Shown here one piece after another: positions 2,171 through 34,854 of a stretch of 64,000 bases of DNA (position 1 is the stretch's first letter; every line of letters begins with the position of its first letter). The notes beneath the pieces were generated by a model. The model was not told where the DNA came from. It did not search any database and worked only from the letters and a program-made list of their open reading frames with translations. The DNA comes from Candidatus Gastranaerophilales bacterium (GTDB taxonomy: Bacteria; Cyanobacteriota; Vampirovibrionia; Gastranaerophilales; Gastranaerophilaceae), in contig JAQUVW010000005.1 in the NCBI GenBank assembly GCA_028693235.1, forward strand, positions 62,001 to 126,000. Direction: 5' to 3'. The position numbers and the translations under genes are program-made.

Positions 2171-2782
2171 ATGTCAATGGAATTGACAGGATTAGATATT
2201 GCACTACGCAGAATGCAATCAATAGAAAGACAGTTTCAGGAATTGTCAGGTTTTGCTGCTCAGAAAGTGGATTCTGATTTCCAAGCTATATTAAACAATA
2301 CAATGGCAGAAAAAAATGTTGAGGCAGCTGAATCACCTTCTGAAAAAATATTTTCACCTGCTGTTAATGACACAACAAAGTCTTCAACAAGAAAAGATAT
2401 TGATTCTTTAATCGATAAATACGCAGAAAAAAATAATCTTGATGCTTCATTTGTAAAAGCACTTGTAAAGCAAGAATCAGGATTTAACCCGAAAGCTCGT
2501 TCTCACTGCGGAGCTATGGGACTTATGCAGTTAATGCCTGCTACGGCAATGTCTTTAGGCGTAAATAATGCTTATGATGCCGAGCAAAATATAGCAGGAG
2601 GCACAAAATATTTAAGAGGGCTTTTGGATAGATTTGACGGCAACAAAGAGTTTGCTTTAGCAGCGTATAATGCAGGCCCCGGTGCTGTCAACAAATACGG
2701 CGGTATTCCCCCATATAACGAAACAAAAAATTATGTCAAAAATGTAATGGCTAATTATCAAAACTTTAAAGGAGGCATCTGA
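2171..2782 (+). CDS. Lytic transglycosylase (SLT fold), flagellar-associated
   Basis: 203 residues. The first ~70 are a polar, partly helical linker; residues ~74-200 form a goose-lysozyme-like SLT domain. Catalytic Glu102 lies in VKQESGFNPKA, followed by GAMGLMQLMP (114-123) and AAYNAGPGAV (164-173), all family hallmarks. It cleaves peptidoglycan between MurNAc and GlcNAc to make a 1,6-anhydro product. No signal peptide is visible, so export probably uses the flagellar system. It is first in the flagellar operon and overlaps flgF by one base (TGATG), so translation is coupled. The rod-binding domain that FlgJ carries in enterobacteria is encoded separately at 6924-7262, so this enzyme likely supplies the missing murein-hydrolase half. 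Confidence 0.88.
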   Translation: MSMELTGLDIALRRMQSIERQFQELSGFAAQKVDSDFQAILNNTMAEKNVEAAESPSEKIFSPAVNDTTKSSTRKDIDSLIDKYAEKNNLDASFVKALVKQESGFNPKARSHCGAMGLMQLMPATAMSLGVNNAYDAEQNIAGGTKYLRGLLDRFDGNKEFALAAYNAGPGAVNKYGGIPPYNETKNYVKNVMANYQNFKGGI

Positions 2783-3597
2783 TGATAACAAGAGGTCTTC
2801 AAATCGCAGCAACAGGCATGCAAGCTTTAATGGATGAAAATGATGTAATTGCTCACAATCTTGCAAATGTCAATACGGCAGGCTTTAAAAAGTCTGCGTT
2901 GCGTTTTAAAAGTTTGTATGATGCGAGAGTTGAACAAACTTCTCCTCCGGGAGCTGATATCAAATCAGCCGATTATAAATATGTAGGCAACATTTCAATG
3001 GGGGCTCAAACAGATAAATCTTTGTTGGCTTTTACTCAAGGAACTCTTGATAGAACTTCAAATCCATTAGATGTCGCTATTGAAGGAGATGGATTCTATA
3101 AAATACAAGATTTGGACGGAAATATTTCGTACACAAGAAATGGACAATTTTATATAAACAATCAAAACAAGCTTGTAACAAGAGAAGGCGAATATGTTCT
3201 TGATGTTAGAGACAAGACTGTCGATATCAATCTTCGCCGTGAACAATCTACCGTTGACCAAGTTACATTCCAAGGTGATGGGCAAATTGTTATAAGTAAT
3301 CCGAATAATCCAAAGCTTCTTCAAAAATTGGCTTTGTATGATTTTTCAGATAAAGAAAATATGAGACAACTCGGTGCGGGTAAATTTGTGCCGACTGATA
3401 TTCAAACAAATCCGCCTTTAAAAGCGGAAAAATTTACACTGCAACAAGGTGCAGTCGAACTTTCTAACACCAATACAATTACTGAAATGATTAACTCTAT
3501 CAATGTTTCAAGAACGTATGAAACTTTGAGTAAAATGGTGAAAAATAACTCGACTCTTTTGCAGACGGCTATTAATTTGGGTAAGGTTAGACTATAA
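2782..3597 (+). CDS. flgF: Flagellar proximal/distal rod protein FlgF
   Basis: 271 residues of the FlgF/FlgG rod family. The N-terminus (GLQIAATGMQALMDENDVIAHNLANVNTAGFKKS) is the conserved D0 helix with the NLANVNTxGFK signature. The mid-region has AIEGDGFYKIQ and YTRNGQF, and the C-terminus ends in a second D0 helix (MINSINVSRTYETLSKMV). It builds the rod that crosses the periplasm. FlgF rather than FlgG is assigned because it precedes a longer-conserved flgG and has the more divergent C-terminus (INVSRTYE instead of IKAERAFE). A good ribosome binding site (AAAGGAGG) precedes the ATG. Confidence 0.9.
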   Translation: MITRGLQIAATGMQALMDENDVIAHNLANVNTAGFKKSALRFKSLYDARVEQTSPPGADIKSADYKYVGNISMGAQTDKSLLAFTQGTLDRTSNPLDVAIEGDGFYKIQDLDGNISYTRNGQFYINNQNKLVTREGEYVLDVRDKTVDINLRREQSTVDQVTFQGDGQIVISNPNNPKLLQKLALYDFSDKENMRQLGAGKFVPTDIQTNPPLKAEKFTLQQGAVELSNTNTITEMINSINVSRTYETLSKMVKNNSTLLQTAINLGKVRL

Positions 3598-29150: not shown

Positions 29151-29642
29151 TTAAATATTCAAAAAGGTACAAAGCTTGTCCCAAATGCCTTTTAGCTTTT
29201 TAGAATGGGGTATTAGAGCTGATTGGTGATAGCCCTTATACTCCTGAATTATATTTTGTGGAAGTTCTTCACCTTTTTGCAGGGTGAATGCTATCATTTC
29301 TAAATATTCGTCTTGTTCTTGAGCGTAAGAAAAATCACGGCGTCTTAAATCGTCATCTGCCTCTCTATGACAAAGGGCATGCCAAGCTGTTTCAACGGAG
29401 CTGTCGTGCATGTCTTGAGGAAAATTTAGCAATGCTTCACGTACAGGTATTTTAGCTGTAAGAGCGGCGAAAATAAGCCTGCTTACGTGCATTCTTGCAT
29501 CTGATATATTTTGAGTTTTGAATGTAGCTTTTTCTTCAGCAGACATAAGCTTCTTTCTCTTTTTTACGAGTTTGAAGCTTGAAAGTTCGTCGCCCATTTT
29601 CTTAAAATAATTTAGAATATTTATTTTGCTAAACTTGAACAT
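29151..29642 (-). CDS. Uncharacterised protein co-transcribed with a BlaI-type repressor
   Basis: 163 residues, no signal peptide or membrane helix. The first ~40 residues are basic (KLVKKRKKLMSAEEK). A conserved-looking core has RMHVSRLIFAALTAKIPVREALLNFP and a His/Asp/Arg-rich segment (HALCHREADDDLRRRD). I do not recognise the family. The start overlaps the regulator gene by 22 bases; an alternative ATG at 29597 would remove the overlap. BlaI family regulators usually neighbour an M56 sensor peptidase, which this is not. Confidence 0.6.
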   Translation of the reverse strand: MFKFSKINILNYFKKMGDELSSFKLVKKRKKLMSAEEKATFKTQNISDARMHVSRLIFAALTAKIPVREALLNFPQDMHDSSVETAWHALCHREADDDLRRRDFSYAQEQDEYLEMIAFTLQKGEELPQNIIQEYKGYHQSALIPHSKKLKGIWDKLCTFLNI

Positions 29643-29971
29643 TCTTTTTCAAGTGCTTTCATAAGAGAACGGATATCGTTGTTGAAATATTGTCCGGCAA
29701 GCCTTTTGATAGCTGATTTAGCCATGTCGTCTCTTGAGGAAGTAGATTTGTAGTAGAATTTTTTGCCTCTTTTGTATCTTGCAAGCATATCTTTTTCGAC
29801 AAGCCTATCCATTACTGTTTTTACAGTTGTATAAGCTCTGACATTTCCGCTTTTATTGATATCTTCAAGTACCTCGCTAACTGATATTGTGTTAGCTGTT
29901 TCTGTGCTTTCTTCCATCGTCCATACTGCACTTAAAATCTCATTTTCCAATGAGCCATGAGTATAATTCAT
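29621..29971 (-). CDS. BlaI/MecI/CopY-family transcriptional repressor
   Basis: 116 residues. The winged helix (~1-85) carries SLENEILSAVWTMEES, then TTVKTVMDRLVEKDMLARYKRGKKFYYKS, the standard PF03965 pattern; the C-terminal helix (SAIKRLAGQYFNNDIRSLMKAL) is the dimerisation part. Family members repress beta-lactamase, copper or other stress genes and are released by proteolysis or metal. No BlaR1-like sensor is adjacent. A near-perfect palindrome, ACTACAATTATAGT, lies at 29998-30011, 27 bases upstream of the start, and may be its operator. Confidence 0.88.
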   Translation of the reverse strand: MNYTHGSLENEILSAVWTMEESTETANTISVSEVLEDINKSGNVRAYTTVKTVMDRLVEKDMLARYKRGKKFYYKSTSSRDDMAKSAIKRLAGQYFNNDIRSLMKALEKECSSLAK

Positions 29972-30365: not shown

Positions 30366-31013
30366 TTAGCATAAATTTTTCAGATCACAATTTTTGCATG
30401 TTGAAGTTGTTGATTTTTTTCTATGTTTTTTATCTCTTACACTTTCTACTATTCCCGTAATTTTTGATTTATATCCATCAATTAAAAAATCATCCGTTTG
30501 TATGACTTCAGTTGTTTTGTTTTTCAGATTTACGTAGATGAAGCTCAAAATACAATGATTATAAGGGTTTAGGTCTTTTAGAATTTCATTTATAGCATAG
30601 AGATAAATTGCAGTTTGCAAGTCGGATTTTGCGTTTTCTGGGATGGAACCTGTTTTCCAGTCGTATATTATGTATTCATTATCTTTTTTTATTATGGCGT
30701 CAATTCTGCCTGTAAGCCAAAAATTACCAAGCTTTACATTGAAAGGATATTCTGTATGTAAAGTATCGTTTGGCTGTATTTTTTGAGTTAAGAAATTTTC
30801 CCATAATTCTTTTTCTGTTGAGGTTAATATCTCAACAAACTTAGATATGTCTTTGTTTTGGAGGTAATAGTTGATTAAGGAGTGGATATTTTTACCTTGT
30901 TCTGCAGCTTGAGATTTTGAGGGGATTTTTATATTGTTTTCATATATAAGTTCAAATTTTTTAGGGCATTTTTTAAATGTTTTCAGCATATTTGCAGAAA
31001 AATTATTCAACAT
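30366..31013 (-). CDS. PD-(D/E)XK nuclease with AddB/Cas4-type iron-sulfur cysteines
   Basis: 215 residues. Motifs are GRIDAI (Asp105), YDWKTG (Asp118, Lys120) and a downstream QTAIYLYA helix, the RecB-family nuclease pattern. Four cysteines (16, 206, 209, 215; N-terminal KKCPKKFE and C-terminal CKNCDLKNLC) match the iron-sulfur 'staple' seen in AddB and Cas4. The ATG overlaps the helicase stop by 11 bases, so the pair is co-translated and likely forms one complex acting on DNA ends. No cas gene is nearby, so a repair/recombination role is favoured over Cas4. Confidence 0.83.
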   Translation of the reverse strand: MLNNFSANMLKTFKKCPKKFELIYENNIKIPSKSQAAEQGKNIHSLINYYLQNKDISKFVEILTSTEKELWENFLTQKIQPNDTLHTEYPFNVKLGNFWLTGRIDAIIKKDNEYIIYDWKTGSIPENAKSDLQTAIYLYAINEILKDLNPYNHCILSFIYVNLKNKTTEVIQTDDFLIDGYKSKITGIVESVRDKKHRKKSTTSTCKNCDLKNLC

Positions 31014-34000
31014 AGTTGTCCTCCGAAATTATTTTGAACAAGGTAGAAATTGTCGGTTTCTTACGTTTAATATATGCCTTAGCACAAGAAAGATAGAGGT
31101 CTTTTTTTGCTCTTGTAATTCCTACATATAGTAGACGTAAAGTTTCTTCAACTTGCTCTTGCTTGAGTTCGTCTATATTTTTTTGTTTATAATTTGGGTT
31201 TAGTTTTTTTATTGTTTCGATAAAATGCGAATTTGATTTAATGTTTAGATTGTTGATATTCGTTGCGTAGTTTTCTTCAATAAGTTCCGGAATAAATACA
31301 TAATCAAACTCATCGCCTTTTGATTTGTGCATGGTCATTATTTGGACGGAGCCTTGTTGGATTTCGTTGTTTTCATTTTCCGAGTTGAAAAATTTATAAT
31401 TCGGTAAATTGGGACGTTTTGCAATGGCAATCAACTTTTCTATGATAGTTTCGGGTTTTTTATATTCTGCGGAAAGCCGTTTTATAATCATTGCGACAAG
31501 ATATACATTTGATTTTTCTATCGGGGTTGAAAAATAATACAGCCCTGCTTTTACTGCTAATGTGTCAAAATCCAGATATGAGTTTTCTATCCAATAAACA
31601 GTATCTGTGTAAAGTTGAATTAATCCGTTAGCTTTGATTTCTGCCAAATCAGTCGTTATAAAAGGTCTTTTTAAGTCTTTTAAATAGGTTTGTTGAGAGG
31701 CTGTAAGTTCAATTTTTTGTATTTTATTTAATGCAGTTGAAAACTCTATAATATGCTTGTTATTCCAAGGTTCAAATGCAATATTAATAATTGAAAAAAT
31801 TATTTTAAATATATTTTTTTCACCCAATGAGTCATTTCTCGTTATGGTATGAAACCCTGTTTCTTGGAGGATTTTATTGTAGTTGTTTACTTGGTAGTTG
31901 TTTCTTAGTAAAAGTGCTATTGAGGCGTTTGGGTTTATCGAAAAAATATTTTTTATAGTTTTTATAATATAGTTATGTTCTTCTTTTTCATTGGCAAAAA
32001 TATTGGCGACAATTCCATTCTCTGGGCTTGGATTTTTATTTGTTGATTTCATTTCTATATCATAAAATGCATTCGGTAAGGTTTTTGAATATGTTTTTAG
32101 GATTTTATTTGCAAGACTATATACAGGCTCAGAGCATCTTTGAGAGGAGTCCATTTCTACGCAGTTTGAATTGTGCAAAAAATCTTTGAAATTTTTCAAG
32201 TCAGAATTAGTAAAAGTCGCAGTTATGGCTTGGTTTACATCGCCACACCTAATGAGGTTTTTATGCTTTGCACTGAGCATTTTTAGCAATTTTTGTTGCA
32301 ATGATGATGAATCTTGAGCCTCATCTTCAATTATAAATTCGCACAAATTTTGGTAATAATCCAAAATATCTTGATTTTTTTCTAAGATTTTTACTGCTAA
32401 ATCAAGCATGTCATCGTAGTCTATCAAATTATTTTCTCTTAAAAGTTTGTTGTATTCATTGAAGAATTTTACGAAATTTTTAATTTCTTTGTATTCTGAT
32501 TCTAAGTTGAAATTATCAGATGACAATTTAATCGCAGATATAGCACTTTGATATTTTTCGGCATTTTCAGCGTCAAGTTTAAGATTGAAGATAGCATTTG
32601 TTATGATTTTTTGTTTTTGTATATCATCGCATATTTCAAAATTTTCATTCAAATTAACTTTTGCATAGTTAGAATTTTCTTTAATTATTCTGAGTGCTAA
32701 ACCATGGATTGTGCTTATGTTAGGTAGCTCGTGGCTGTCAGGGTTTGCGGCTTTAATCCTTTCTTTGAAGTTTTTTGCAGCAGCGTCCATATATGTCAAA
32801 ACAAAAATATTTTCAGCTTTTGTTCCCATATTCATAAGTTTAAGAATCAAGGCTAATAAAATAGTCGTTTTGCCGGCTCCGGGAACCGCCATAATCCCCA
32901 TTTGACCTTTTTTGTAGTCAAGTACGGGAGCTTGGTCGCTTCGGGGCGTAAAAGCCCGTTGCGGTTGCTGTTTTTTTATATTATTTTCTTTGAAAAAGTC
33001 TAAAATCCCTCCGAAATTTTCATTTCCCAAGTTATCGTACAGGCTCGCAAATGCATATATGTTTTTTTCTGAGCAAAGCATAAGTTTTCTTAGTGTGCGT
33101 GCTGTTTTTTCTCGAGAAAGAGTCAAATTATCTTCGTAATTAAATTCTTTTTTGTCCCAATCCGCATTGAAAACCCAAGCGTTGTAAAGGGTTCCTATGT
33201 CTTGTTTTTGCCAGTTTGGTGATGAAATATCAAGCCAAAACTGATATTTTGTTTTTATTTCAGAGTCAATGATTTTTTGCGGGCTTCCTACTAATATGCA
33301 GTTTTCTTTTATATCATCTCCAACAGCCGGATTTTCGCTTATTATGCTGTTCTCAAGTTGGATTGCAAAGTTTTTTTGTGCTTTTGCATTTTCAGTTCCG
33401 AAGGCTTTTTCAAAGCTTTCAACTTCTTTTAAAAGGAAAGAAAATTTGTTCGTATCGTCAGGCGAGAGCTTTTCTGATAGGATTTTTTCATATATATTTA
33501 AAAGCTTTTCAGATAATGAGTTTTTTGTCTGTTTCAATTCGTTTGATATGTTTAAAAAATCTTGATATTTTTGTGTAAAATTAGAGTTTTCAAACTCAAA
33601 ATATATCAGTTGATTGTTTTCTTTAAAGTCGTGGAAAATTTTATAACAATATTTCAACGGTATTTTTAAGATATCTGTAAATAAAACCCTTATTTCAATT
33701 GGTTCTATTTTTAAATTCCAATCAGGATTTGTGAGTTTCAAGAGTGCGAGGGCATTTTTTATGCCGGAATTTTCAAAAAGTTTTTCGTTTCCACTCAAAA
33801 ATTGGAATTCAATATCCAGCTCGTTAGCTATTTCTGCGATAGAAAATTTCAAAACCTCATCAATGTTAGGTGTTACAATGCTTATTTCAGAAGGTTTTGC
33901 TTCTTTTTCAAAAAGACCCGCAATCATTTTTTTCAAAGAATCGAAAAGGTCGAGCCTCTTGGTATAGCTTTTAATTTTTATAATGTCAGATGAGTGTTGC

Positions 34001-34854
34001 TCTCCTTTTTTTATGGCGTCAAAGACCAAATCTGCTTCTTGTGAGATGATATCTTCTGTTTTCAAGTGTTTTGCTTTTTCTTCGAAAACAGTTTCAAATT
34101 CATAAACACCCGTCTTGTAAGCACTCAAATAGCCACATCTTGAGGCACCATTTTTATCATAGGCGATAGTCGCACTTTCAAGTTGCGGTTTTAGATGTTT
34201 TAAGAATTGCCAGTTGATGTAGGTTATTTCGTCTGCATCATCGACAATAAGGTGTTTTATATCCTTGAAATAATCTGTGTGAGTGTAAATATATTCAAAA
34301 ATACTTAACTGCCGCAAGTAATCAAAGCTTCTTTTTTCAAGAGTTGTCTTTTTGTAATTTTCAATTGCTTTATAAGAATCTTCAAAAAACGATTCGTTCA
34401 GCAATCCGCTTCGAGCTTCTACTTGTTCTTTAGAAAGGGCGTTCTGAACAATGAGTGAATATCTCTTGAAAAGTTGGTGAAGCAGATTAATCTTTGACAT
34501 GTAATCTTGGAAGCCTGCTGTTTTAATGCTTTGTTTAAAAATATATTGTGAAACTTCTAAGCTGCAAAGATTTGGCTGTATAGTGGTTTTCCCGAGGTTT
34601 ATGAGGTTTTCTATTTCAACCCAGTTGTCAGAAAAGGCATTGTAAGATAGTCCGTAAAAAGTATAAATTTTAGGGTTTGGCAATATGGTTTTAAAAATTT
34701 TTTCTTTGACAGAATTTATAAATGCTTGTTTTTTGAACGGATTTAAGCAAAGGACTAAGATGGAGTCAGCACGGACTCCTTGGTTAATTAGCTCGACATA
34801 TTTTTCGATGAGCAAATCTGTTTTATTTGATTTTAAATTCCCTTCAATAAGCAT
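31003..34854 (-). CDS. Two-part SF1 helicase: degenerate AddB-like half fused to active UvrD-like half
   Basis: 1283 residues. The first ~630 resemble a helicase that has lost its motifs: degenerate Walker A EGNLKSNKT (4-12) and VDDADEIT (204-211) in place of DEAQD. The second half is an intact UvrD/AddA-type helicase: Q-motif SDQ (639-641), Walker A VPGAGKTT (657-664), TIHG (715-718), Walker B IIEDEAQDSS (841-850), GDVNQAI (871-877), IMTMHKSKGDEFDYVF and YVGITRAKKDLYLS. No nuclease domain is present; that is supplied by the overlapping gene. The organisation looks like AddAB rearranged onto one polypeptide plus a separate nuclease. Confidence 0.85.
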   Translation of the reverse strand: MLIEGNLKSNKTDLLIEKYVELINQGVRADSILVLCLNPFKKQAFINSVKEKIFKTILPNPKIYTFYGLSYNAFSDNWVEIENLINLGKTTIQPNLCSLEVSQYIFKQSIKTAGFQDYMSKINLLHQLFKRYSLIVQNALSKEQVEARSGLLNESFFEDSYKAIENYKKTTLEKRSFDYLRQLSIFEYIYTHTDYFKDIKHLIVDDADEITYINWQFLKHLKPQLESATIAYDKNGASRCGYLSAYKTGVYEFETVFEEKAKHLKTEDIISQEADLVFDAIKKGEQHSSDIIKIKSYTKRLDLFDSLKKMIAGLFEKEAKPSEISIVTPNIDEVLKFSIAEIANELDIEFQFLSGNEKLFENSGIKNALALLKLTNPDWNLKIEPIEIRVLFTDILKIPLKYCYKIFHDFKENNQLIYFEFENSNFTQKYQDFLNISNELKQTKNSLSEKLLNIYEKILSEKLSPDDTNKFSFLLKEVESFEKAFGTENAKAQKNFAIQLENSIISENPAVGDDIKENCILVGSPQKIIDSEIKTKYQFWLDISSPNWQKQDIGTLYNAWVFNADWDKKEFNYEDNLTLSREKTARTLRKLMLCSEKNIYAFASLYDNLGNENFGGILDFFKENNIKKQQPQRAFTPRSDQAPVLDYKKGQMGIMAVPGAGKTTILLALILKLMNMGTKAENIFVLTYMDAAAKNFKERIKAANPDSHELPNISTIHGLALRIIKENSNYAKVNLNENFEICDDIQKQKIITNAIFNLKLDAENAEKYQSAISAIKLSSDNFNLESEYKEIKNFVKFFNEYNKLLRENNLIDYDDMLDLAVKILEKNQDILDYYQNLCEFIIEDEAQDSSSLQQKLLKMLSAKHKNLIRCGDVNQAITATFTNSDLKNFKDFLHNSNCVEMDSSQRCSEPVYSLANKILKTYSKTLPNAFYDIEMKSTNKNPSPENGIVANIFANEKEEHNYIIKTIKNIFSINPNASIALLLRNNYQVNNYNKILQETGFHTITRNDSLGEKNIFKIIFSIINIAFEPWNNKHIIEFSTALNKIQKIELTASQQTYLKDLKRPFITTDLAEIKANGLIQLYTDTVYWIENSYLDFDTLAVKAGLYYFSTPIEKSNVYLVAMIIKRLSAEYKKPETIIEKLIAIAKRPNLPNYKFFNSENENNEIQQGSVQIMTMHKSKGDEFDYVFIPELIEENYATNINNLNIKSNSHFIETIKKLNPNYKQKNIDELKQEQVEETLRLLYVGITRAKKDLYLSCAKAYIKRKKPTISTLFKIISEDNYVE

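Follow-up and report, generated by a model that had tools for sequence, protein, structure and literature searches.

The window, that is, the whole stretch of 64,000 nucleotides that was analysed, comes from a member of the Gastranaerophilales, a gut relative of cyanobacteria, and carries two overlapping genes that encode a double helicase and a small nuclease. Their features are as follows, with residues numbered within each protein:

31003..34854, minus strand: double-helicase protein of 1283 aa (ORF), with full-length orthologues at 35-49% identity across Gastranaerophilales
32953..34854, minus strand: N-half (residues 1-634), a degenerate SF1A helicase, kin of a separate 650-750 aa protein of other Cyanobacteriota, Salinibacter and Ilyobacter
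34819..34845, minus strand: degenerate Walker A (motif I) of the N-half, EGNLKSNKT; GK[ST] is retained in just 12/124 orthologues
34228..34242, minus strand: degenerate motif II of the N-half, VDDADEIT (DDADE, residues 205-209), with the catalytic Glu changed to Asp; position 206 is D, N or G in 124/124
31003..32952, minus strand: C-half (residues 635-1283), an intact UvrD-type SF1A helicase by Pfam and by conservation in 124 orthologues
32863..32889, minus strand: Walker A of the C-half, AVPGAGKTT, with G661, K662 and T663 in 124/124
32311..32328, minus strand: motif II of the C-half, EDEAQD (residues 843-848), with D844 and E845 in 124/124
31108..31116, minus strand: motif VI arginine finger of the C-half, TRA (residues 1247-1249), in 123/124, one row being a gap
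31003..31013, minus strand: 11-nt overlap of the helicase and nuclease genes, from the ORF coordinates
30366..31013, minus strand: detached PD-(D/E)XK nuclease (Cas4/AdnA-type) of 215 aa, by ORF, Pfam and fold
30966..30968, minus strand: first Cys (C16) of a putative 4Fe-4S site, from the alignment
30654..30701, minus strand: nuclease active-site stretch, D105 to K120 (DxK at 118-120), its columns invariant in two alignments
30369..30398, minus strand: C-terminal Cys cluster CKNCDLKNLC (C206, C209, C215), from the alignment

The original prediction described a degenerate helicase half joined to an intact UvrD-type half, a description that Pfam, the predicted fold and the 124 orthologues all bear out. 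Pfam places UvrD-helicase (644-894) and UvrD_C (1116-1259) in the C-half only, and the N-half alone clears the UvrD-helicase cut-off in the genome search (24.8 bits). Besides the motif I and II residues listed above, Q875 and R906 of the C-half are present in all 124 orthologues. In the N-half, the motif II glutamate is replaced and the arginine finger is absent in every one of them. Conservation across these 124 orthologues excludes chance. The decay of the N-half appears to have been gradual, as families f2-f4 retain an intact Walker A in it (e.g., GPLKSGKT).

A model of the N-half built from 78 relatives (pLDDT 91.5, pTM 0.89) adopts a helicase fold, and AddB is among its matches, in agreement with what had been expected of it. 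In Foldseek, it was matched to UvrD (E 1e-17), AddB (4ceh_B, TM 0.63, rmsd 7.4), AddA (4ceh_A, TM 0.67) and AdnB (9np6_B, TM 0.69), with an rmsd of ~7-9 to most AddAB/AdnAB chains against ~11 to free UvrD. Over ~540-590 columns, the N-half profile could be aligned with profiles of AddB-like proteins, of UvrD-like proteins and of the C-half (E 5e-7 to 6e-9), and a PDB profile search with the N-half returned nothing but Rep at E 0.01. As it is no closer to AddB than to a UvrD-type protein, the term “AddB-like” must be taken as a functional analogy. Judged from its sequence and its model, the N-half is a dead helicase.

The nuclease was also correctly anticipated as an overlapping 215-residue PD-(D/E)XK gene product with four cysteines. 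It is matched by PDDEXK_1 (1.4e-21) and Cas4 (1.2e-9), and H44, E88, D105, D118, K120, Q133 and Y137 are invariant across the nuclease alignments, as are C16, C209 and C215 in 38 aligned sequences. In five genomes (G002, G003, G021, G026 and G035), all four cysteines and the C-terminus have gone jointly with the D...DxK core largely retained, as one shared cluster would predict. The nuclease model (pLDDT 93.6) is most similar to ACE1 and the AdnA nuclease domain (TM ~0.71), followed by human Exo5, Cas4, AddA and RecB. It fails the Cas4 equivalog model (39.6 bits; NCBIfam cut-off, 65), and its direct neighbour in most genomes is the double helicase, not cas1/cas2.

In four of the five genomes with a Cys-less nuclease (L041, L042, L043 and L058), the VPGAGKTT of motif I in the C-half is also replaced, by VAGSGKTT, AAGSGKTT or VAGAGKTT, a shared alteration that suggests one clade.

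The two genes are core in Gastranaerophilales. Nearly every genome of the order has the double helicase at full length, and the nuclease adjoins it in 62 of the 78 named genomes, typically with overlaps of 4, 8 or 11 nt; the 11-nt overlap in the window likely couples translation of the two genes. A detached Fe-S-type nuclease that is conserved together with the helicase is thus supported. In 13 genomes of the relatives sample the nuclease is still present on another contig. Both genes are missing from genus g9 (G008, G322), from G162 and from G050/G053, so they have been lost together at least three times; across the order sample's 44 complete genomes, their co-occurrence gives a Fisher p of 0.018, with kinship ignored. 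By contrast, genera g17 (two genomes) and g54 (six genomes) keep the helicase with nuclease matches that are weak and probably cross-family, or with none. Consequently, the helicase must have a use alone or with another nuclease. In G016 and G028, what follows the helicase downstream are ORFs that do not encode nucleases. The proposal of an optional or exchangeable nuclease is in this way supported in its first part, whereas its second part is without support.

Searches of genome contigs with a single sequence found no relatives, while a search with the alignment found 289, of which 80 were kept, nearly all of them Gastranaerophilales-labelled or unlabelled MAGs. No description of the N-protein (the separate counterpart of the N-half) or of the helicase-nuclease pair was found in the open-access literature. 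Downstream of the pair and on the same strand (window 29151-29971, minus strand), the gene of a BlaI/CopY-like repressor (116 aa) overlaps that of a 163-aa protein; L022 has a similar repressor-like ORF after its nuclease gene.

It had also been asked whether addA/addB or recBCD would be absent where the pair occurs. In many relatives the pair is the only system of its kind that was found: as the small nuclease is the sole PDDEXK_1 match in G006, G007, G010, G017, G022, G027, G029, G034 and others, no AddA, AddB or RecB nuclease was found there. The window's genome, by contrast, has a complete AddAB-like pair (L009, G000:C1:311109-317457; 1141 and 999 aa, each with helicase and nuclease). This pair has orthologues in just 10 of 59 relatives and its closest copy lies in another family, so it is accessory and was probably acquired horizontally; it is patchy where the pair in the window is co-conserved. 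Also encoded in this genome are an 818-aa PcrA-like helicase and a second UvrD-like helicase of 663 aa; no match to RecC (PF04257) was found in it.

Other helicase-nucleases are frequent among the relatives. The three members of the family that lack the double helicase (G008, G322 and G162) each have a solo enzyme of ~1020-1030 aa, and another helicase-nuclease was present in 7/7 genomes examined with a Cys-less or missing nuclease versus 17/36 others (p 0.012, hand-counted and with kinship ignored). Solo proteins of ~1000-1030 aa with a C-terminal Cys cluster occur in many relatives (e.g., L246:5438-8515, L247:5657-8698 and L251:4186-7245).

In other Cyanobacteriota, the parts are encoded by separate genes for an N-protein of ~650-750 aa, a C-helicase of ~690-810 aa and a nuclease of ~230-300 aa. 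Profile-profile comparison relates them to their Gastranaerophilales counterparts with E-values of 1.8e-62 (N), 2e-102 (C) and 6e-32 (nuclease). The three genes overlap in one operon in G069 (L119; N 673, C 712 and nuclease 280 aa), and in G064 there is a 4-nt overlap between the N and C genes. In the photosynthetic genomes whose N-gene surroundings were read, the C-helicase and nuclease genes are not adjacent to the N-gene, and the N-protein of photosynthetic genomes often has an intact Walker A and motif VI arginine. Outside the phylum, plasmid pSR56 of Salinibacter ruber carries N, helicase and nuclease genes in the same order as L119, followed by recJ, with matches to the cyanobacterial profiles at 1e-97, 1.5e-134 and 8e-47, respectively; an N-protein match was also found in Ilyobacter (7e-77), and no plasmid relatives were found beyond these two organisms. 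These sequence comparisons point to three separate ancestral genes, two of which would then have fused. The split state is likelier to be the older one, since the separate cyanobacterial genes match the parts better and Salinibacter is equally split.

Among known systems, the pair resembles AddAB (Bacillus-type RexAB) in its predicted combination of a single active SF1A helicase with an inactive helicase-like part whose fold matches AddB and with an Fe-S PD-(D/E)XK nuclease. Its four cysteines (C16, C206, C209 and C215) surround the nuclease domain as in AddAB, and the cluster that they would hold is putative. However, AddA and AddB are separate proteins, each with a nuclease, whereas here the helicases are fused and the one nuclease is detached. 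The 1283-aa protein has no nuclease domain and so lacks the AddA architecture (helicase and C-terminal nuclease in one chain), scoring 94 bits against the addA_Gpos cut-off of 708. The AddB architecture (inactive helicase and Fe-S nuclease in one chain) is equally absent, as the N-half is fused elsewhere and the nuclease, far under the NCBIfam AddB cut-off, has its own gene. With the mycobacterial AdnAB the pair shares two UvrD-like parts, AdnA having the closest nuclease fold among helicase-nucleases and AdnB being the top TM match of the N-half, but AdnA and AdnB each hold helicase and nuclease in one chain. RecBCD likewise includes a dead helicase scaffold, RecC, and a single nuclease that serves the complex; it differs in that the nuclease in the window is not fused to the motor, and in the RecC of which the window's genome has no match. 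The pair is best described as a functional analogue of AddAB and AdnAB with another division of parts, and by defining architecture it is a member of neither.

A UvrD-type helicase beside a separate Cas4-like nuclease has also been described in some bacteria, mostly Clostridiales, and proposed for processes such as repair (PMC5704561). Compared by description only, these pairs differ in that the accounts consulted mention no degenerate helicase half. The top fold match of the nuclease (E 1e-8) is ACE1, a cyanobacterial Argonaute-associated Cas4 protein (PDB 9iab, 9iac), which appears to be a distinct family. These two structures were rejected as solved relatives, as a cyanobacterial nuclease of the three-gene system finds no PDB chain by sequence at E<=1.

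We consider it probable that the pair processes DNA ends as a helicase-nuclease, in the manner of AddAB and AdnAB, and represents the fused form of the three-gene system. In this model, the two proteins would form a complex in which the C-half is the only motor, a 3′-5′ SF1A translocase, and the dead N-half acts as a scaffold and a channel for single-stranded DNA. The separate Fe-S-type nuclease would dock on the N-half and degrade one strand of the unwound DNA, so that single-stranded DNA is left for RecA. The inactive helicase folds of AddB and RecC are used as sequence scanners (PMC4824097) and, by analogy, the N-half might guide or inspect one strand in the same manner, with the C-half pulling and the nuclease cutting.

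Alternatively, the machine could be mainly a barrier against incoming DNA (plasmids, phage or transforming DNA, linear or replicating), with repair as a secondary role. Phage DNA is also degraded by AddAB and RecBCD, and the Salinibacter operon is plasmid-borne and lies beside recJ. In S. elongatus, the loss of uvrD (a pcrA paralogue), recJcy or Synpcc7942_0992 (a PD-(D/E)XK protein) improves both natural transformation and the transfer or maintenance of RSF1010 (PMC10653904). In the 2.6-Mb cyanobacterium G137, the C-half profile picks out just two helicases at E<=1e-20, one of them the C-helicase and the other PcrA-like, so the “uvrD” of S. elongatus may be the C-helicase; the resemblance of the Salinibacter order N-helicase-nuclease-recJ to the S. 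elongatus set is a lead, but the identity of those genes with the three-gene system is a guess. Against a barrier, the genes belong to the core of the order and occur in almost all of its genomes, viral contigs and phages yielded no relatives, and the PADLOC matches of the window genes are generic ones to GajB and Cas4, as relatives of UvrD and Cas4. Consequently, a barrier as the main function seems unlikely, and the dedicated role in phage defence that had been suggested is disfavoured.

A Gabija system does occur elsewhere in the same genome (L012:344-4374, G000:C2; GajA and GajB, PADLOC E 3e-233 and 3e-238); no GajA was found among the ORFs neighbouring the pair.

A Rep/PcrA-like role at replication forks, with the nuclease as an optional accessory, is improbable. 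Although the C-half profile is equally close to PcrA (E 1e-49) and AddA (1e-44), and the helicase occurs without its nuclease in g17 and g54, the genome already has the PcrA-like and the second UvrD-like helicases, the two proteins tend to vanish together, and a conserved dead half with a linked nuclease would suit an end-processing machine better. The weakest alternative takes up the rearranged AddAB of the original prediction, here as a classical AddAB that changed in this lineage by cutting off both nuclease domains, losing one and fusing the helicases: the domain set is indeed that of AddAB minus one nuclease, and some of the relatives, like the class outgroup G058, have AddAB-like pairs, but the separate cyanobacterial N, C and nuclease proteins match far better than AddB or AddA and Salinibacter has the same split set, which makes this origin very improbable.

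Returning to an end-processing machine with three ancestral genes, we tentatively propose, at somewhat less than even chances, that the N-protein, the C-helicase and the nuclease constitute a further bacterial class of DNA-end resection enzymes besides RecBCD, AddAB and AdnAB. In most cyanobacteria they would be the counterpart that had been missing, encoded by dispersed genes; in Gastranaerophilales they would be fused, and in the RecC-bearing family RecBCD would have replaced them. RecC is found in 40 of the 292 genomes of the phylum sample, 35 of them from family f35, which we infer to be the marine Prochlorococcus/Synechococcus group; all 35 lack both the N-protein and the nuclease, and RecC coincides with an N-protein match in four genomes. 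The Fisher p (4e-30) is dominated by this single family, so that the complementarity effectively stands for one event or a few.

Synechocystis 6803 and Nostoc 7120 have been reported to lack recBec and recC, and Synechococcus 7942 to lack recCD (PMC5101192), whereas S. elongatus encodes AddAB according to another report (PMC10269773). Published accounts thus differ on the enzyme that starts double-strand break repair in model cyanobacteria, and the present analysis names three concrete candidate genes for this step, including an N-protein without a Pfam or NCBIfam match in the two cyanobacterial proteins tested. The pair and its three-gene relatives may together be what these bacteria use on broken DNA in place of RecBCD or AddAB. 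More generally, the analysis shows that an AddAB-like machine can have its motor, its scaffold and its nuclease in separate genes, and that lineages can lose the nuclease and yet keep the motor.

Finally, the N-half has an in-frame insert at nearly the same site in four genomes (L060, and L255, L256 and L257, which correspond to G124, G226 and G269). The L060 insert (2535-3137) is an endonuclease-like domain of the DUF559 type (PF04480, E 2.7e-37), which the other three seem to resemble. Peptides encoded by repeats, such as PPIACGDFPLKGGRN or TPPPNPLPQGAGG, occur in the flanks, and the insert has the look of a mobile element that enters genes in frame.
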